In this document: positions 2,334 to 20,987 of the stretch, piece by piece
Position numbering within the stretch: position 1 is the first letter of the stretch
Layout of the letters: the number at the start of each line of letters is the position of its first letter
Virus record (IMG/VR): IMGVR_UViG_3300025840_000324
Span: 1 to 20,987 of that record
Strand: one strand, 5' to 3'
DNA: 20,987 nucleotides
Origin: a virus
Translations under genes and position numbers: made by a program
The notes under the pieces: generated by a model
Told to the model about the DNA's origin: nothing
Database searches by the model: none
What the model saw: the letters and a program-made list of their open reading frames with translations, nothing else

Positions 2334-2966
2334 ATGAAAAAAGCATTACTAGCACTTTTATGTGCTTTTCCACTTGCCTCACAAGCATTTTTGACTGCAA
2401 GTACTGAAACAGACATTAACTATTATCATGATTTTTCTTTGAGTGTTGACCAGTTCAAATTGAGTCATAATCAATATGGTGACTGGGGTTTAAATGAAAC
2501 TCGTATCGGTTGGGGCGGCCTTTCAGCAATCACAAGCGATACTTTAGATTTTGGTATTTCTTATGAAACCACCTTTTCCGCTGGTCTAGATGGCAATGAG
2601 TTTGAAATTAAATCTGGTATGCATATGCACAACGACGTTATCTTTTCGTTAGATACTTCATTTTTCGTTGGTGGATTGAAAGTTCTACCTTCAGCAGACT
2701 GGAATCTTTCTAGTTCTGCAATGGATGCAGAAGTTGGATTTGAATATAAATTGTCAAGTGTTGACGCAGTAACAACTCTTTTCTATGATGTAAGTTCTAT
2801 TGCTTATAATGGATCAGAGTTTTCTTTAGGATATAACTTTCATATAAATGACGCTATTTCCGTCAAACCTAATATGGTAATTCCTTTCGATAGTGAATGG
2901 GATCAGGGTGATATCCGAGCTGGACTTTCTATTAATGTAGCATTTGCAACAAATCCAGGACAATAA
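2334..2966 (+). CDS. Secreted beta-rich protein, outer-membrane-barrel-like
   Basis: The 210-residue protein starts with a clear Sec signal peptide, MKKALLALLCAFPLASQA, with likely cleavage after residue 18. The mature part has no hydrophobic helix. It is made of alternating short strands with aromatic girdle-like residues (FGISYETTF, LSLGYNF-type segments) and ends with a strand (AGLSINVAFA). This pattern is what small outer-membrane beta-barrels or porin-like proteins show, so I infer export to the periplasm and perhaps insertion in the host outer membrane. A role in superinfection exclusion or envelope change is speculation. Translation starts at ATG 2334 with AGGAG five bases upstream, and a late promoter box lies at 2273-2280. 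The stop codon overlaps the box that precedes the tmRNA. Confidence 0.75.
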   Translation: MKKALLALLCAFPLASQAFLTASTETDINYYHDFSLSVDQFKLSHNQYGDWGLNETRIGWGGLSAITSDTLDFGISYETTFSAGLDGNEFEIKSGMHMHNDVIFSLDTSFFVGGLKVLPSADWNLSSSAMDAEVGFEYKLSSVDAVTTLFYDVSSIAYNGSEFSLGYNFHINDAISVKPNMVIPFDSEWDQGDIRAGLSINVAFATNPGQ

Positions 2967-2969
2967 ATA
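2962..2969 (+). promoter_or_regulatory. T4-like late promoter box before the tmRNA gene
   Basis: AATAAATA matches seven of eight positions of the late consensus. With the usual spacing the transcript would start near 2975, just before the acceptor piece of the permuted tmRNA, so the box could drive the tmRNA precursor. It overlaps the TAA of the upstream gene (2964-2966). Confidence 0.5.
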
Positions 2970-2973
2970 AATC

Positions 2974-3168
2974 GTGGATAAAACTGTAGACGGTAAAGGA
3001 GTAGACGTTGCGGACGGCGGGGCAGTACCGCCCACCTCCACCAAATCATTTTTAGGCTATGATGTTCATGGTAATCGCCAGTTTCCACATGACTGGTATT
3101 ATACTGAACAAGAATGGAATAGAGGAGTAGGTTGGGGCAAAGTACCACCAGAACGAATTAAAAAGTAA
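2974..3168 (+). CDS. Possible 64-residue ORF overlapping the tmRNA acceptor piece
   Basis: A GTG at 2974 opens a frame that runs through the whole acceptor piece and the intervening segment and stops at 3166-3168, one base before the coding piece begins. The part encoded by the intervening segment reads like protein: GYDVHGNRQ, PHDWYYTEQEW, then GWGKVPPER. There is no other start codon in this frame and no Shine-Dalgarno, but a late promoter box ends four bases before the GTG, so a leaderless message is conceivable. It may simply be an open frame in a non-coding RNA precursor. I do not recognise the product. Confidence 0.3.
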   Translation: MDKTVDGKGVDVADGGAVPPTSTKSFLGYDVHGNRQFPHDWYYTEQEWNRGVGWGKVPPERIKK

Positions 3169-3420
3169 TGGGGGTGACCTAGTTTCGACGGAGCGAATGA
3201 AAGTTTACAAGAGGTTTTTGATACATAACTATAAACGCCAATGATGACGTTTACTTTCAAGAATATGCCTTAGCGGCTTAATTTTTGACGGGGCATGGGC
3301 ACCGCCTTGATATCCAAAGGGCCCATCTTAAAATATATGAACAGTAATCAAAGTGGTCTATGCCGAGAACGCCACACATGACGAACCGCTGAACCATAGA
3401 TAAGCGTGTTCCCTTTACGT
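2975..3420 (+). ncRNA. ssrA: Circularly permuted two-piece tmRNA (alphaproteobacterial type)
   Basis: tmRNA rescues stalled ribosomes and adds a degradation tag. The gene is permuted: the acceptor piece comes first and ends in CACCTCC-A-CCA at 3033-3043; the coding piece starts with GGGGGTG at 3170-3176. The two strands form a complete 7-bp acceptor stem with one G-U pair, followed in the coding piece by the TTCGACGG block typical of tmRNA (3184-3191). The T arm is GGCGG/CCGCC at 3016-3020 and 3028-3032 with loop GGCAGTA. A seven-base match, GTAAAGG at 2993-2999 with CCTTTAC at 3412-3418, can join the two pieces near their outer ends. The tag reading frame is at 3237-3281. Bases 3044-3169 are the intervening segment that would be removed. 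The exact ends are inferred. SmpB-binding determinants were not checked. Confidence 0.9.
3237..3281 (+). other. tmRNA tag-peptide reading frame
   Basis: The frame GCC to GCT (3237-3278) followed by TAA (3279-3281) encodes ANDDVYFQEYALAA. It begins with the usual Ala resume codon followed by AND and ends in ALAA, the C-terminal degron read by ClpXP/ClpAP in bacteria. The middle (VYFQE) differs from the textbook E. coli tag. Confidence 0.88.
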
Positions 3421-4890: not shown

Positions 4891-4965
4891 TCCTCAGTAG
4901 CTCAGTGGTAGAGCAGACGGCTGTTAACCGTCCGGTCGGTGGTTCGAATCCATCCTGAGGAGCCA
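4891..4965 (+). tRNA. trnN: tRNA-Asn (anticodon GTT)
   Basis: A complete 75-base cloverleaf with encoded CCA: acceptor stem TCCTCAG/CTGAGGA, D arm GCTC-loop-GAGC, anticodon stem GACGG/CCGTC with loop CTGTTAA (anticodon GTT), variable CGGTC, T arm GGTGG-TTCGAAT-CCATC, discriminator G and CCA at 4963-4965. It starts on the base after the deaminase stop codon, so it must be cut out of a shared transcript unless it has its own promoter; none is evident. Confidence 0.97.
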
Positions 4966-4984: not shown

Positions 4985-5803
4985 GTGAATAAAACTTATT
5001 ATTTTATGTCTGGTTTGCCTAGAAGCGGTAGTTCTCTATTATCGGCTTTATTTAATCAGAATCCAAGATTTTATTGTGGCCCAAGTTCGCCTATATGTTC
5101 TGTGATTCTAGGTATAGAAGATCATTTAAAAACTGATGAGTTATATACTGCCTGGCCAAAAGAAAATTTTAAAGACGGAATTATATCTTCAGTACTTCCA
5201 AGTTACTATAGTGATATTGATAAACCAATTGTTATAGATAAAAATAGAAGTTGGACCCGCAGAATAGGATATCTTTCTAAATACTTTAATATCGAAAATC
5301 CTAAAATAATTTGTACTGTCCGAAACCTCACGGAGATTTTGACATCATTCATTGACATGATTCACAGAAGTAATAGTGTAAGTTTTGTTGATAAATCATT
5401 AAGTAAATTGAAAGTTCCTATTAATGATTTTGCAAGGTGTCAGTGGATTGCTTCTGATGGACCTTTAGGAAGATCCTATACTAGTTTAAAAATTGCATTT
5501 CAAGAGGGATATAGAGATAATTTATATTTTGTGGAGTATAGTGATTTAGTATCTAATCCAAAGAAAACAATGCAAGAAATATATAACTTTATAGAAGAAG
5601 AATATTACGAGCACAACTTTGACCATATAGAGAAGATTGTTCATGAAGACGATGGCTCGGTTTACGGCCTTCCGGATATGCATGATGTTAGGCCAAGTGT
5701 AAAGTCTATATCTAAAAATCCCAACGATGTACTTCCTGAGAAAGTAATTCAAGATGTTTCCAATTTAGAATTCTGGAGAAGTAGCGAATTAAATTTATCA
5801 TGA
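4985..5803 (+). CDS. Sulfotransferase-family protein
   Basis: The N-terminus YYFMSGLPRSGSSLLSALF carries the 5'-phosphosulfate-binding loop PRSGSS (residues 12-17) of PAPS-dependent sulfotransferases. The second conserved element, RNLTEILTSF, supplies Arg113 and Ser121, which fit the 3'-phosphate-binding pair. Such enzymes move a sulfuryl group from PAPS to a hydroxyl or amine; the acceptor here is unknown. Length (272 residues) is normal for small bacterial sulfotransferases. The GTG start at 4985 follows tRNA-Asn by 19 bases and has a weak ribosome-binding site. The stop codon overlaps the ATG of the lipoprotein gene (ATGA). The gene could modify host or virion surface components, but that is inference. 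Confidence 0.8.
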   Translation: MNKTYYFMSGLPRSGSSLLSALFNQNPRFYCGPSSPICSVILGIEDHLKTDELYTAWPKENFKDGIISSVLPSYYSDIDKPIVIDKNRSWTRRIGYLSKYFNIENPKIICTVRNLTEILTSFIDMIHRSNSVSFVDKSLSKLKVPINDFARCQWIASDGPLGRSYTSLKIAFQEGYRDNLYFVEYSDLVSNPKKTMQEIYNFIEEEYYEHNFDHIEKIVHEDDGSVYGLPDMHDVRPSVKSISKNPNDVLPEKVIQDVSNLEFWRSSELNLS

Positions 5804-6450
5804 AAAAAATTATAACGCCATTATTCGTAATTTCTCTTATTAGTTGTAGTGGATCAACTTCAACAGGTGATCCAGAGATTGGAGGAATCTATGACGAAGA
5901 AGATTACAAACTTGTTTACCAATATAATGCATTTAAACTAGATGGCCCAATTATACGTTGGCCCACAAGATGGATTTCTTTATATAATATTCCTTTGGAT
6001 CATAAGGCACTAGATATATGGAAAGAACTTGGGTTTGTTTTTATACAGGGAGGTTCTGAAATTGTTTATGATGGAGAATCTCAAGAAGATGCTCCCTATT
6101 GTGGTCGAGCAAATTGGAGATGGAAAAGTGATACTAAAGGAAACTATTGGTTTAAATCCTGTAACATTGTACTCAATGCAAGAAAGCATACTGGATATCA
6201 ATGTGGTAGTGTAGAAAATACTTTGAGACATGAAATTGGTCACTGCTTAGGAATATTAGGCCATACGAGTGATGGTACTTTAATGGATCCAACATCAAAT
6301 AATTCTGATGAACTTCCGAATTACATTAAAAGAATGTTGGAAGTACTCTACAACACAAGAACAGATGTAAGAATAGAGGAAGATGGCAGTAAATCGTATA
6401 AGATAAACAAGAATGAAGAATATTCAGGAAATAACTATATAAATGATTGA
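5800..6450 (+). CDS. Lipoprotein zinc metalloprotease, metzincin-like
   Basis: The 216-residue protein starts with a lipoprotein signal, MKKIITPLFVISLISC, with the lipobox LISC and Cys16 as the lipidation site. Residues 144-155 are HEIGHCLGILGH, a perfect HExxHxxGxxH zinc site of the metzincin/matrixin type (His144, Glu145, His148, His154 or His155 region), and 161-164 (LMDP) fits the Met-turn. Four Cys residues before the site (C101, C121, C135, C149) might form disulfides. The protein should therefore be an envelope-anchored protease facing the periplasm or outside. The target is unknown. The ATG overlaps the sulfotransferase stop and the end overlaps the next gene by eight bases, so it sits in a tight operon. 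Confidence 0.85.
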   Translation: MKKIITPLFVISLISCSGSTSTGDPEIGGIYDEEDYKLVYQYNAFKLDGPIIRWPTRWISLYNIPLDHKALDIWKELGFVFIQGGSEIVYDGESQEDAPYCGRANWRWKSDTKGNYWFKSCNIVLNARKHTGYQCGSVENTLRHEIGHCLGILGHTSDGTLMDPTSNNSDELPNYIKRMLEVLYNTRTDVRIEEDGSKSYKINKNEEYSGNNYIND

Positions 6451-15257: not shown

Positions 15258-15962
15258 ATGAGTTTACCTATGTTAAATATTCCAACTTATCCGTTGGAGA
15301 TACCTTCTACAAAGGAGATGATTTCATTTAGACCATTTCTAGTAAAAGAAGAAAAGATACTTCTTTTAGCTTTAGAAGAAAATAATGAGGCAATGATTGC
15401 TCGTGCACTAAAACAAATTGTACACAACTGTACGTTTGAAATTTTAGAAATTGATCGTATGCCTTTATTTGATTTGGAGTATATCTTTTTGAACATTAGA
15501 GCAAAGTCTGTTGGCGAGACAGCTGAGTTAAAACTTCTTTGTCCAGATGACGAAAAAACATATGCAAATGTGAAAATTCCTTTGGATGAAGTTCAAGTAG
15601 AGTTTTCAAAAGACCACAAGAAAGAAATTAAACTAACAGATACGATTACTGTGGTCATGCGTTACCCAACATATGAATTGTTGGGTATGGACGATAGTTC
15701 AATGACGATAGAAAGGACTTTCAAACTTATTGGTGATTGTACTGATAAGATTGTTGACGGTGAAACTGTATACGAACGAGCAGATTTCACAGAAAAAGAA
15801 TTGAATGATTTTTATGATGGCTTAAACTCTCAACAGTTTTTGGAGATTCAAAAGTTTTTTGAGACAATGCCTAAACTAAGATATATTGTCGATGTTGTTA
15901 ATCCAAAGACTAAGAAGAAAAATAAAATTACATTGGAGGGATTGCAAAGTTTTTTCGTATAG
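15258..15962 (+). CDS. 26: Baseplate hub / tail assembly protein gp26-like (zero-frame product)
   Basis: The zero-frame product has 234 residues. The start MSLPMLNIPTYPLEIPSTK and FRPFLVKEEKILLLALEENN are hallmarks of gp26-family proteins of T4-like phages. AGGAG (15244-15248) precedes the ATG by nine bases. The last codons read AGT TTT TTC GTA TAG, in which T-TTT-TTC at 15950-15956 is a perfect slippery heptamer. I infer that a fraction of ribosomes moves into the -1 frame and makes a longer protein (see the 15258-16144 entry). gp26 is listed as a hub protein in T4; a short-and-long product pair would also fit a tail-assembly chaperone like lambda gpG/gpGT, which should be kept in mind. Confidence 0.85.
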   Translation: MSLPMLNIPTYPLEIPSTKEMISFRPFLVKEEKILLLALEENNEAMIARALKQIVHNCTFEILEIDRMPLFDLEYIFLNIRAKSVGETAELKLLCPDDEKTYANVKIPLDEVQVEFSKDHKKEIKLTDTITVVMRYPTYELLGMDDSSMTIERTFKLIGDCTDKIVDGETVYERADFTEKELNDFYDGLNSQQFLEIQKFFETMPKLRYIVDVVNPKTKKKNKITLEGLQSFFV

Positions 15963-16466: not shown

Positions 16467-18410
16467 ATGGCTTATACAGGACTAGGATTAACTCAAAAAC
16501 CTACTTTGGAGGGTATTAAAGAGGCAGGTTTAGCTCTAGCTGGAGGTGTTGGTGCCACCATCACCGGTGTTGGTGGACTTGCTCTTGGTGGAGCAGGACT
16601 AGTTGCAGGATCTTTAGCAAACGCATTTGGTGCAACAGCAACACCATATCTCGTTGGCCTTGGTGCTATGGGAGCAGCAGGTAAGAAAGGATTTAATATG
16701 TTTGATAGATCCTCAGATGACAATACAATAAAAAAAGATACTGCTACTCCAGAACTTCAACAGGAGATGTCCAAACAGACTCAATATGGATTATTAAGTC
16801 TGGATAAGTTAGATGACATTCACAAAGACTTAGCAGAAACAAGATCGATTCTGGTAGTTCAAGATCCGGCTTCTCAGGCAAGAGAAGAAGCATTAGACGA
16901 ACAAACAAAGAACAAAGAACTTGTTTCTACTATTATGGGTATAGGTAAAGGTGTAGATTCAGGTGGTAAAGGAAAAGAAAAAAGTCTTTTAGAGAAATTA
17001 TTGCCCTTAATAGGACTAACTGCGTTGACGGCTGCTTTGCCTAAGTTCTTAGAAGATTTTGATAAATGGTCAAATACAATCTCTGAAGCTGTTGATAATA
17101 TCTCAGAGTTTTTAAATGATTTAGATAACTTCTTTGAGGGTATGGGTATTGAGTTTGGTGGTCCAGCGGCCTTGGGTGCAATACGTGGTGCAAAAACTGC
17201 AACACGAAGAACCCAGAGAAAGTTAAGAACACCTCGTGGCGGTCTTAGTCGAGGTACAGGTACTAGACGAGCAAGACCAACTTCTAAAGAAACACGAAAG
17301 AGATATCAAAGAATATACGGCTCCGATGCAGCTAGAAATAGATTTCAAGGTCAGGTAAGAAACCCTCGAGGCGGCCTTGAACGAGGTACAGGCACTAGAT
17401 CGGCAAGACCAACTTCGACTCCAAAAAGAGGAGGACCAAGAAGATTAGCTCTCAAGTCTTTAGCGTTACCGCCACCAAAACCACCTAAATCTAAAAGACC
17501 ATCTAAAATTAATTCTACACAGTTTTTGTTGGATAGTAAACCACAACCAGTATCACCAGAGATTAAACCAACAACGTCTACACCTAAAAGAGGCGGTAGA
17601 GTAAAACAAGGATTTCAAAAGGCCTTTGATATAGCTCGATTTAAAAATTTACCTAGAAGTGCATCATCAAGTTACATGGCTTCAGTTGATCCTGCACAAA
17701 GAGGAAAAGCATGGAGTAAAATTGCAGCTTTAGATAAATGGTTGGCAACAAATAAAGTTGCTCAAGCAGTTCTCAAGCCATTTGCAAAAGCAGCTTGGTT
17801 TATATCTGCTGCCTTTGCTGCATATGATATTAGTGAATTGATAAGTCAATGGCTGAAAAATAAATCTGAAGGTAATGATTGGCCTTTTGCAGGCGATGAA
17901 CCAGAAGATAAAGTTTTTGTTGATGGATTGAAAAAGATGGCAGGAACTTATGGAGGAGCCTATCTCGGAGCAATTGCTGGAGGTATGATAGGTAGTTTGA
18001 TTCCTGTTCCTTTTGTCGGAACTGTAGCAGGTTCAATTGTAGGAGGACTAGCAGGATCAATGCTAGGTGAAAGTCTTGCAGGGGGTATACAAGGTACAGA
18101 TAGGCTCAACAAGATAAAGGCTGAGAAGAAAGGTATCTTGATGGAGTTAAACTCCGAATTTTCACCCGAAGATTCGATGAATGGAAGAGATGAACAATTA
18201 ATTCAACGACTGGAGGCTATTGACGAAGAAATCAAAGTTTTAGAGTCAGGTCCTACGGATGAAGCATCAACAGTGGTAATAGTGAATAATGTGGATAATA
18301 CACAAAATGTTAATTCTGCAACATCAACAACGACAAATACTACAAACACGGAAAATAAAGCTCCAATGCAAATCTACGGCGAAGAAGATATGTCTTATAT
18401 GTCACCTTAG
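16467..18410 (+). CDS. Large tail protein, paralogue A (tape-measure-like candidate)
   Basis: The 647-residue protein starts with a glycine-rich hydrophobic segment (MAYTGLGLTQKPTL then ALAGG and GLALGGAGLVAGSLANAFGAT) that is nearly identical to the start of the next gene. A helical part with EKLLPLIGLTALTAALPKFL follows, then a very basic Arg/Pro/Lys region (residues about 245-390) holding two copies of PRGGLxRGTGTRxARPTS 44 residues apart. Next come hydrophobic helices and a glycine-zipper-like stretch (GGAYLGAIAGGMIGSL, GSIVGGLAGSMLGESL) and an Asn/Thr-rich tail. Size, low-complexity regions and position after gp26 suggest a gp29-like hub or tape-measure role, but no motif proves this. 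Confidence 0.6.
   Translation: MAYTGLGLTQKPTLEGIKEAGLALAGGVGATITGVGGLALGGAGLVAGSLANAFGATATPYLVGLGAMGAAGKKGFNMFDRSSDDNTIKKDTATPELQQEMSKQTQYGLLSLDKLDDIHKDLAETRSILVVQDPASQAREEALDEQTKNKELVSTIMGIGKGVDSGGKGKEKSLLEKLLPLIGLTALTAALPKFLEDFDKWSNTISEAVDNISEFLNDLDNFFEGMGIEFGGPAALGAIRGAKTATRRTQRKLRTPRGGLSRGTGTRRARPTSKETRKRYQRIYGSDAARNRFQGQVRNPRGGLERGTGTRSARPTSTPKRGGPRRLALKSLALPPPKPPKSKRPSKINSTQFLLDSKPQPVSPEIKPTTSTPKRGGRVKQGFQKAFDIARFKNLPRSASSSYMASVDPAQRGKAWSKIAALDKWLATNKVAQAVLKPFAKAAWFISAAFAAYDISELISQWLKNKSEGNDWPFAGDEPEDKVFVDGLKKMAGTYGGAYLGAIAGGMIGSLIPVPFVGTVAGSIVGGLAGSMLGESLAGGIQGTDRLNKIKAEKKGILMELNSEFSPEDSMNGRDEQLIQRLEAIDEEIKVLESGPTDEASTVVIVNNVDNTQNVNSATSTTTNTTNTENKAPMQIYGEEDMSYMSP
17232..17417 (+). repeat. 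Two 54-base direct repeats in paralogue A
   Basis: Bases 17232-17285 and 17364-17417 encode PRGGLSRGTGTRRARPTS and PRGGLERGTGTRSARPTS. The copies differ mainly at third positions, so the protein repeat has been kept by selection or the duplication is not recent. The offset is 132 bases (44 codons). Confidence 0.8.
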
Positions 18411-18420
18411 GAAAATGTAA

Positions 18421-20160
18421 ATGGCTTATACAGGACTAGGATTAACTCAAAAACCTACTTTGAAGGGTATTGGAGAGGCAAGTTTAGCTCTAGCTGGAGG
18501 TATTGGCGGACTTGCTCTTGGTGGAGCAGGACTAGTTGCAGGATCTTTAGCAAACGCATTTGGTGCAACACCATATATTGCCGGATTAGGTATACTTGGA
18601 GCATCAGCCAAAAAAGGATTTAATTTTTCGTTTGAAAAGGAAGATACTGCGAGATCACTTGGATTGGATGAAAATTCTAGTCCATCTGAGGTTGAAGCCG
18701 GAGAGGTTTCCATCTTAAATAAAATTGCAGCAGAAAGTAGTTCGTTATTAGAAACTGTAAAAGATAATCAAATTTCTCCATCTCAAGAAAGAGAATTTCA
18801 GATGGATAGAGACAAAAATCATCAGGAATTAATCTCGGCTTTTTCTAATATAAGTCTTGTGAGTATTTCTGATGATGAAAACAAAGATCCCTGGTGGAAA
18901 AAAATATTTAATCTCTTATCTGGATGGAAATTACTTGTTGCACCATTTGTAAAGGGAATGGCAACTTTCTTAGCCAGAATGTTACTTGTGTTTACAAGTC
19001 CTGCCTTGTTGGGTATTGCTGGTGCACTTCTGATAATGACAAAATGGAAGACAATCAAGAAAACAATAAAAGGAGCAATTTACAAAATAAAAGTTTGGAC
19101 CAATAAAGTTTTGAGTTTAATTCCTGGAGCTCCTCTATTAGAAATTGGAGAAAATCCTAACGCAACACCTATGGATGCAGGAGAGTTCGTCAATACAACT
19201 ACAGGAGGTGATGAAGGATTTAAAGTTGTAGAAAATCCTAACGCAACACCTATGGATGCAGGAGAGTTTGTCACCACAACAGGCGTCGGAGAATTTAAAG
19301 ACGGTGGATCGTTTATTGTAGATGGTGATGATGGTGGAGTTGATAAGCTTATGGTAGTGTTTAATGCAACCAAAGGAGAAAAGGTTACAGTAGAAACACC
19401 AAAACAACAAAAAGAAAACATGAAGTCTCCCACAATGCTAGGAGATAAGTACGTTGATATGGATACTATCGAAGGCCGTAGAGAATTTTATTTCAATGCT
19501 ACAGAAGAAGAATGGACACAGATGTATGTTAATATGGAAAATCAAGGAATGGGACTTGCATCAAGTGCTGCTCAAATGCAAGATACCTCAAAACTTGAAG
19601 TTTTAGATTATATGTTTGGTATAAGCGTGGAGGGACAACAATCAGTACAAACATCAATGGTAAATGATGACATAAAGGAAAGTTTTGGTGATTGGACAAA
19701 AATTGTAAATTCCATTGGTGATGTTACTCAAATGCAATCAGGTGAACTTATGGATACTAGAACAGGAAGTGAAGAATCTGTTACTGGCGAAAATATGAAA
19801 ACAATTTCCTGGGATGATTGGAAAGGAGATGAAGATAAATTAAGGTCGTTGGGAGTATACAATAACGAGGACATCAATAGATACAAACAGATAACAGGTT
19901 CTAGTTTTATGGATACTAGCGGCGGCCGAGGAAGAATGGTTGAAGGTCGATATGACAGAATTAATCATTTAAAACAAATTCAGAGAACTATTGAAACACC
20001 AAAAGTAGAGTCATTTAAACTAAAACCAAAAGTTGAGGAAATAACAAACTATATTGATAACTCGTCCTCGAAAAACCAGAAGTCAACAAAAACTTATGAG
20101 TTTGGTGGCGGTTTCTCTGTAACAGATGGACACACACTATCACCACTTACAAACAGGTAA
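18421..20160 (+). CDS. Large tail protein, paralogue B
   Basis: The 579-residue protein shares its first 70 or so residues with paralogue A, including a 63-base DNA stretch that is identical in both. After that the sequences diverge. It has a segment with WWKKIFNLLSGWKLL, hydrophobic helices (FVKGMATFLARMLLVFTSPALL, split here) around residues 170-200, a two-copy repeat ENPNATPMDAGEFV, and a long polar C-terminal part with FGGGFSVTDG near the end. The first half fits an inserted or tape-measure-type tail protein and the second half is unassigned. It begins ten bases after the first paralogue ends, with AGGA as a distant ribosome-binding site. Confidence 0.6.
   Translation: MAYTGLGLTQKPTLKGIGEASLALAGGIGGLALGGAGLVAGSLANAFGATPYIAGLGILGASAKKGFNFSFEKEDTARSLGLDENSSPSEVEAGEVSILNKIAAESSSLLETVKDNQISPSQEREFQMDRDKNHQELISAFSNISLVSISDDENKDPWWKKIFNLLSGWKLLVAPFVKGMATFLARMLLVFTSPALLGIAGALLIMTKWKTIKKTIKGAIYKIKVWTNKVLSLIPGAPLLEIGENPNATPMDAGEFVNTTTGGDEGFKVVENPNATPMDAGEFVTTTGVGEFKDGGSFIVDGDDGGVDKLMVVFNATKGEKVTVETPKQQKENMKSPTMLGDKYVDMDTIEGRREFYFNATEEEWTQMYVNMENQGMGLASSAAQMQDTSKLEVLDYMFGISVEGQQSVQTSMVNDDIKESFGDWTKIVNSIGDVTQMQSGELMDTRTGSEESVTGENMKTISWDDWKGDEDKLRSLGVYNNEDINRYKQITGSSFMDTSGGRGRMVEGRYDRINHLKQIQRTIETPKVESFKLKPKVEEITNYIDNSSSKNQKSTKTYEFGGGFSVTDGHTLSPLTNR
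19150..19268 (+). repeat. 81-base offset tandem repeat in paralogue B
   Basis: A 38-base block at 19150-19187 recurs without change at 19231-19268, offset 81 bases (27 codons), and both encode ENPNATPMDAGEF. The near-perfect DNA identity suggests a young duplication or ongoing conversion inside a flexible, Gly/Asp/Thr-rich linker. Confidence 0.85.
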
Positions 20161-20162
20161 TT

Positions 20163-20495
20163 ATGATGAAAAAAATATTATTAAGTCTACTACTATTCTC
20201 GACAATAGTTAGCGCACAACAAAAACCACCAAAAGATATGTATGAGTTAGAGATACCTATGACTTTTGTTTGTCTCCCTAGTTTTATGAGAATGGTAAAT
20301 CATCTAAATGATAATTTTGGTGAAGTTCCTGTGGCAATGTCTCAAATGAGTTCTGAGATAACCCTTATATTATTTGTAAATGAAGATAAAACAACTTCAA
20401 GTTTGGTCGTTTTACGAAAAGCACAAAAAGAAGAAGAAGTTTGTATTGTTTGGGCCGGCGAATCTGAAGGTGCATCTTTTCTTCTTGCTCTTTAG
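20163..20495 (+). CDS. Small secreted protein of unknown function
   Basis: 110 residues beginning with a signal peptide (MMKKILLSLLLFSTIVSA, cleavage likely before QQ at 19). The mature part has two Cys (around C37 and C93) that may pair, and a helix PSFMRMVNHLNDNFG. ATG at 20163 or 20166 are both possible starts. The gene begins two bases after paralogue B and its TAG is followed at once by a late box. It is probably periplasmic; I recognise no family. Confidence 0.7.
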   Translation: MMKKILLSLLLFSTIVSAQQKPPKDMYELEIPMTFVCLPSFMRMVNHLNDNFGEVPVAMSQMSSEITLILFVNEDKTTSSLVVLRKAQKEEEVCIVWAGESEGASFLLAL

Positions 20496-20503
20496 TATAA
20501 ATA
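20496..20503 (+). promoter_or_regulatory. Perfect late promoter box before glutaredoxin
   Basis: TATAAATA at 20496-20503 is an exact match to the T4 late consensus and begins on the base after the preceding stop codon. With T4 spacing the transcript starts at 20509, the A of the glutaredoxin ATG, so the message would have no leader. Confidence 0.7.
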
Positions 20504-20508
20504 AAATA

Positions 20509-20805
20509 ATGAGAAAAGAAGAATATGTTGTATATGGAATAGATAACTGTTCTTGGTGTGAAAGAGCCAAAACTATTATCGAGCATTACGGATATCAATG
20601 TAAATATGTAAATCTTAAAGAGAGTCAAGAAATAAGAGAAACTTTCAATAGAAAAACACGAGGTGCTACAGCAGTTCCTCAAATATTTTACTATGATCCT
20701 GTGAGAACTTATGGTAATGAAAAGATGGAAGTTCATGTTGGTGGATATGAAGAACTCTCTGACTGGTTAAGACAAAAGACTCTTTACAAAAAACAAAATA
20801 CCTGA
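20509..20805 (+). CDS. grx: Glutaredoxin
   Basis: The 98-residue protein is a thioredoxin-fold glutaredoxin: VVYGIDNCSWCERAKTII with the redox pair CSWC, the cis-proline segment TAVPQIF, and the glycine pair in HVGGYEEL, as in glutathione-dependent glutaredoxins. In T4-like phages it serves as hydrogen donor for ribonucleotide reductase and other reductases. The ATG at 20509 is preferred over an upstream in-frame ATG at 20380 because the latter adds Lys-rich residues overlapping the previous gene and does not fit the fold. No Shine-Dalgarno is present. The C-terminal coding region contains the -35 element of the next promoter. Confidence 0.92.
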   Translation: MRKEEYVVYGIDNCSWCERAKTIIEHYGYQCKYVNLKESQEIRETFNRKTRGATAVPQIFYYDPVRTYGNEKMEVHVGGYEELSDWLRQKTLYKKQNT

Positions 20806-20811
20806 TATAAT
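20783..20811 (+). promoter_or_regulatory. Sigma70-like promoter for the bL33 gene
   Basis: TTTACA at 20783-20788, a 17-base spacer and TATAAT at 20806-20811. The predicted start, near 20818, is two bases before the ATG at 20820, the same distance seen at the exonuclease gene (TATAAT to ATG nine bases). There is no Shine-Dalgarno. Confidence 0.7.
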
Positions 20812-20819
20812 AATACATT

Positions 20820-20987
20820 ATGGCAAGTAAAAGTTATAAACTAGTAAAACTGGAATCAGAACCAGAAGACGAACCAAAACATTTCTACACAGCTCGACGA
20901 CCAACTAAAGGCGAGAAGGTAGGGATTAAGTTACGGCTTCGTAAATACAATCCATATGCTCGTAAGCATATGTGGTACAAAGAAACA
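20820..20987 (+). CDS. rpmG: Ribosomal protein bL33 homologue (cut by window end)
   Basis: The visible 56 residues read MASKSYKLVKLESE, FYTARRPTKGEK, then LRLRKYNPYARKHMWYKET. The last block matches the bL33 signature (KL-x-L-x-KYDP-x-x-RKH-x-x-YKE) and the N-terminal KLVKL and aromatic FY positions also fit. The zinc-binding Cys pairs of C+ type L33 are absent, as in the Cys-free form. Cellular L33 is about 55 residues and sits near the ribosomal E site; this copy has a few extra acidic residues (SEPEDEP) after the first strand. No stop lies in the window; a few more residues are expected. A host-like promoter at 20783-20811 drives it. Confidence 0.82.
   Translation, partial: MASKSYKLVKLESEPEDEPKHFYTARRPTKGEKVGIKLRLRKYNPYARKHMWYKET

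Follow-up and report, generated by a model that had tools for sequence, protein, structure and literature searches.

A phage-encoded ribosomal protein bL33, with its own candidate promoter, in a fragment of a T4-like marine myovirus

The bL33 gene and its phage context

We analysed 20,987 nt of viral DNA (IMG/VR record IMGVR_UViG_3300025840_000324, positions 1 to 20,987), referred to here in its entirety as the window. The last gene of the window, at 20820..20987 on the + strand, is rpmG-like, with an ATG start; the contig ends inside it, after 56 of the expected 59 codons. The encoded protein matches the Pfam family PF00471 (Ribosomal_L33) with 31.6 bits (E 2e-7, 49 residues aligned; cut-off 25 bits), and a search with the same family at the DNA level gave an identical outcome for 20820-20987. 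All 56 residues recur with 100% identity in two further IMG/VR contigs, L002 and L003, whose DNA shows two synonymous differences. In L002 the gene is complete: three codons (KLK) and a TGA lie beyond the 56 of the window, such that the protein has 59 aa (MASKSYKLVKLESEPEDEPKHFYTARRPTKGEKVGIKLRLRKYNPYARKHMWYKETKLK-stop) and ends in KETKLK. This complete version matches the NCBIfam equivalog TIGR01023 (rpmG_bact) from end to end with 38.6 bits, above the cut-off of 23.95 bits; with the narrower PRK00595 subfamily model it scored 31.1, under the threshold of 50. The phage protein retains the C-terminal motif RKYNPxxRKHxxYKExK, and its 59 residues fall within the size of bL33 (~50-60 aa, without a large extension).

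Comparison with solved structures gave a similar result. A phmmer search of the PDB with the phage protein returned bL33 chains, and an AlphaFold model (pLDDT 75) has four strands. The best 33 PDB matches of this model in Foldseek are all chains of bacterial, mitochondrial or chloroplast ribosome entries, with TM scores of 0.56-0.72 by query length, and they include the bL33-named chains 7unr_5, 6spb_3 and 9h91_1 that phmmer had also found. The Foldseek E-values are weak (0.02 at best) because the protein is tiny; the predicted fold matches the bL33 chains of solved ribosomes. Thus, at the level of sequence and modelled fold, the ORF is confirmed as a real, nearly complete bL33 gene. The earlier note had named it as such, had proposed a search of the complete protein against bL33 families, and had held that the absence of a bL33 match or a large extension would speak against the assignment; given the family, PDB and fold matches and the full length of 59 aa, neither applies. 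The divergence of the phage sequence and the moderate confidence of the model might point instead to a small protein that binds RNA but has ceased to enter ribosomes; however, the retained C-terminal motif, the full-length equivalog match and the resemblance of the fold to ribosomal chains argue against such an extraribosomal role, which we regard as extremely unlikely.

That this is a phage gene, as the earlier note had also held, is borne out by the baseplate, tail tube, DNA end protector, PhoH and ThyX genes of T4-like kind on the same contig. The window also encodes a PD-(D/E)XK nuclease, a baseplate hub and tape-measure proteins, and its T4-type structural and replication genes stand in a conserved order of the Mosig/HTVC008M kind; judged by these genes, the window is a fragment of a T4-like marine myovirus. 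Pelagibacter phage Mosig EXVC030M (MT647606) has, in the same order, PD-(D/E)XK nuclease, tmRNA, gp33-like, ThyX and gp59-like genes, and the shared order extends to the ssDNA-binding protein, DNA end protector, tail tube, baseplate and tape measure. Mosig differs in being without bL33, and its baseplate tail tube cap is only 30% identical to that of the window.

The window contains a permuted tmRNA on the + strand (2951..3372 by ARAGORN, 2980-3281 by Rfam; tag ANDDVYFQEYALAA) and a real tRNA-Asn (GTT) at 4891..4965 on the same strand. The tmRNA also matches the alphaproteobacterial model of Rfam with 59.6 bits (gathering 50), which makes an alphaproteobacterial host plausible. Small-genome MAGs (~0.9-1.0 Mb), the closest genome matches to the bL33, were not accepted as the host, having been selected in part by a short search pattern. 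The tmRNA of Mosig is likewise of the permuted type, lies at the same position, between the nuclease and the gp33-like gene, and has a predicted tag of GEDNFALAA. Since Mosig has this tmRNA without bL33, it would seem that the phage group had the tmRNA first and that bL33 was added later. We therefore rejected a joint tmRNA/bL33 module; the earlier note had read bL33, tmRNA and tRNA-Asn together as a sign of ribosome adjustment, but the tmRNA probably does not belong to such a set with bL33.

Directly upstream of bL33 lies a glutaredoxin gene (20509..20805, + strand; PF00462, 43.6 bits), as in L002; when the window glutaredoxin was used as the query of a scan, no relatives emerged. It is preceded by a gene for a small signal-peptide-like protein, with no function assigned (20163..20495, + strand), which lies in a block shared with L002, L003 and a third contig, L083. 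Farther upstream, two adjacent tape-measure-like genes (16467-18410 and 18421-20160) have nearly identical N-termini (MAYTGLGLTQKPTL...), as though the start region had been duplicated; at this place L002 has a single gene of 732 aa without a tblastn match to either. Elsewhere in the window are a sulfotransferase-like gene (4985-5803; PF13469, 59.6 bits) and, at 5800-6450, a gene for a lipoprotein-like protein with a zinc-metalloprotease-like motif (HEIGHCLGILGH), without a Pfam match.

Candidate promoter and predicted mRNA start of the bL33 gene

A sigma-70-type promoter-like site with an extended -10 element (TGn) is found at 20783..20811 on the + strand (TTTACA-17-TATAAT), overlapping the 3' end of the glutaredoxin gene and ending 8 nt before the bL33 ATG. 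Its counterpart in L002 (TTGACA-17 nt-TAGAAT, also with an extended -10) lies 6 nt before the ATG. Indeed, the earlier note had given the gene a host-like promoter of its own, and a site with a 17-nt spacer directly before bL33, in the same arrangement in both contigs, agrees with that claim, with the restriction that the two upstream regions are homologous (~70% identical) and so count as less than two independent cases. On the sense strand, sites with 11 or more of 12 matches number four in the window, the bL33 site among them, versus ~0.5 in shuffles, and one in L002, the bL33 site, versus ~0.3.

Shine-Dalgarno pairing before bL33 is predicted to be nil (+0.6 kcal/mol in the window, +0.2 in L002); for about a third of the other genes it amounts to -6 to -13 kcal/mol. 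Because the promoter lies 6-8 nt before the ATG, the usual start-site spacing places the predicted 5' end of the bL33 mRNA at or within ~2 nt of the AUG, in a near-leaderless message. Similarly, a near-perfect site (TTGACT-17-TATAAT, 921-949) ends 8 nt short of the ATG that opens the PD-(D/E)XK nuclease gene (958-1668), predicted to be a second near-leaderless start in the window. In Mosig, the annotated genes Mosig_00122 and Mosig_00125 show the layout of bL33 as well, with a TTGACA-type site at a distance of 6 nt from the ATG. The sites in the window and in Mosig are consensus matches rather than mapped starts, and the layout they share provides a concrete prediction for some of the mRNA starts in such phages.

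In L002 the next gene overlaps the end of bL33 by an ATGA, and its product resembles the A-type Fe-S carriers (IscA-like, with GGGCSG ... SCGCG), with a score of 23.2 bits against PF01521, just below the cut-off of 26.3. Because the Shine-Dalgarno pairing of this gene is almost absent (-0.9 kcal/mol), the sequence suggests that its translation is coupled to that of bL33. In another phage locus (L019:6001-6564), bL33 is followed directly by a NifU-like Fe-S assembly gene, such that Fe-S genes adjoin bL33 in two phage groups.

An octamer resembling T4 late promoters, TATAAATA, is present at 20496..20503 (+ strand), just before the glutaredoxin gene. There are two such octamers in the window, a count not above chance, and we rejected them as late promoters. 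With a late-like octamer before the upstream gene, the early expression of bL33 that the earlier note had suggested is only a guess.

Distribution, selection and ancestry of phage bL33

The DNA identity between the window and L002 rises abruptly at the start codon of bL33, from ~70% upstream to 98.8%, and resembles a border as in cassette exchange. The block at 20166-20494 (96.7% identity with L002, L003 and L083) is another island in otherwise diverged DNA. The window and L003 contigs break off alike at bL33, as they might if this stretch were common to several co-occurring genomes. The baseplate gene at 15258-15962 was used to collect 80 relatives, and in their DNA (0.88 Mb, in which many pieces are too short to reach the place) we found no bL33, which is thus sporadic in this phage group. 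If bL33 were a passenger gene, acquired from a cell or another phage and moving as a cassette without present benefit, we would expect the jump in identity at the start codon, the lack of bL33 in the 80 relatives and the contig ends at bL33, with the near-identity reflecting recent exchange rather than function. However, the bL33 frame is intact, the promoter has been kept in place with an exact 17-nt spacer, and bL33 of another phage clade is under strong purifying selection; we therefore consider a mere passenger unlikely.

This other clade emerged from a scan of IMG/VR, which yielded, in addition to L002 and L003, 37 further viral loci with divergent bL33 proteins of 61-67 aa, some of them near-copies of one another. 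Most end in PPHSK, PPHTK or PRHTK, several score just under or above the Pfam cut-off, and their genes adjoin those for terminase, UvsX/helicase/ssDNA-binding proteins or exonuclease. In the tree they form one supported group (99/100). The median dN/dS of these related genes is 0.09 (58 pairs, which are not independent), and this strong purifying selection indicates that phage bL33 genes are maintained for their protein; the value is that of the other phage clade, and the window's own clade has only two synonymous and no nonsynonymous differences. A tblastn search of a phage database with the window bL33 gave no match. Exact or near-exact matches to E. coli bL33 in that database were rejected as phage genes: MG065691, MG065686, OR850987 and similar records, two of them labelled Campylobacter phage, encode exactly the E. 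coli bL33 and are probably bacterial DNA in phage collections.

The ancestry of the window bL33 was examined in a tree panel without SAR11 sequences, in which the alphaproteobacteria form a supported group that excludes it and the window clade stands apart on a long branch. Placing it with the proteobacteria gave a p-AU of 0.155, and joining all phages together gave 0.41; the data neither reject nor support a single phage origin or a proteobacterial kinship. Because the window protein is only ~40-51% identical to cellular bL33 and its branch is long, a changed role is possible. Such a divergent bL33 might alter the ribosome, changing the release of tRNA from the E-site or favouring phage mRNAs. 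The long branch, a changed middle loop, a lineage-specific acidic stretch (ESEPEDEP) and a Trp at position 52 that is shared with the other phage clade would be consistent with this. However, bacterial MAGs with small genomes (L045-L048) have this Trp in their bL33 too, and bL33 is dispensable in E. coli, such that an altered-ribosome factor appears improbable.

Proposed role and comparison with known phage ribosomal proteins

The simplest account, and the most likely one on our analysis, is that the phage supplies host ribosomes with a bL33 of its own. We think it probable that this T4-like marine myovirus carries bL33 as a functional accessory cassette, with its own promoter, a near-leaderless mRNA and a protein that enters host ribosomes; the presence of the same gene after glutaredoxin in related phages, the synteny with Mosig and the family and fold matches argue for this. 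Host RNA polymerase would read the gene from the sigma-70-type promoter, and with a 5' end no more than ~2 nt from the AUG, initiation would be leaderless or near-leaderless. The 59-aa protein would then occupy the position of bL33 in the large subunit, next to the E-site; it could get there by changing places with the host's bL33 or by entering subunits that are freshly made or lack bL33. Host ribosomes would in this way be kept or tuned for phage protein synthesis; it is this expression, incorporation and benefit that we infer. A bolder version, in which a leaderless early bL33 mRNA and phage-modified ribosomes with altered E-site behaviour jointly aid the takeover of the host, is very unlikely; if true, the exchange of a ribosomal protein and leaderless initiation would act in concert in that takeover. 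L002 supplies a short, complete phage bL33 sequence with a clear promoter, suited to laboratory testing.

The earlier note had considered bL33 a less familiar phage cargo, but Mizuno et al. 2019 (PMC6375957) had already reported bL33 from over 10 contigs of aquatic viruses. The same paper describes bL33 as a ribosomal protein that is loosely bound and can be exchanged, and reports that phage bS21 and bL12 enter 70S ribosomes on expression in E. coli. The window resembles these viruses in that bL33 lies on an aquatic viral contig with a single ribosomal protein gene seen. The extended -10 promoter-like site with its predicted near-leaderless layout and the abrupt, cassette-like border are new details for phage bL33, and the accessible text of PMC6375957 does not describe such features. 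The Microcystis jumbo phage PhiMa05 (PMC13157829) also encodes bL33, but it has six ribosomal proteins and a jumbo genome and is linked to Vampirovibrionia, whereas the window derives from a T4-like marine phage, in which a single ribosomal protein has been seen to date. Phage bS21 genes (PMC9723584) likewise bring a loosely bound ribosomal protein onto a phage; they differ in the protein itself and in an expression that the title of that paper links to late-stage replication. Thus, phage bL33 has been published (PMC6375957, PMC13157829), and what is new here is a divergent example in a T4-like marine phage, whose clade represents a second, well-separated type of phage bL33, from a group of phages with kinship to those of SAR11.
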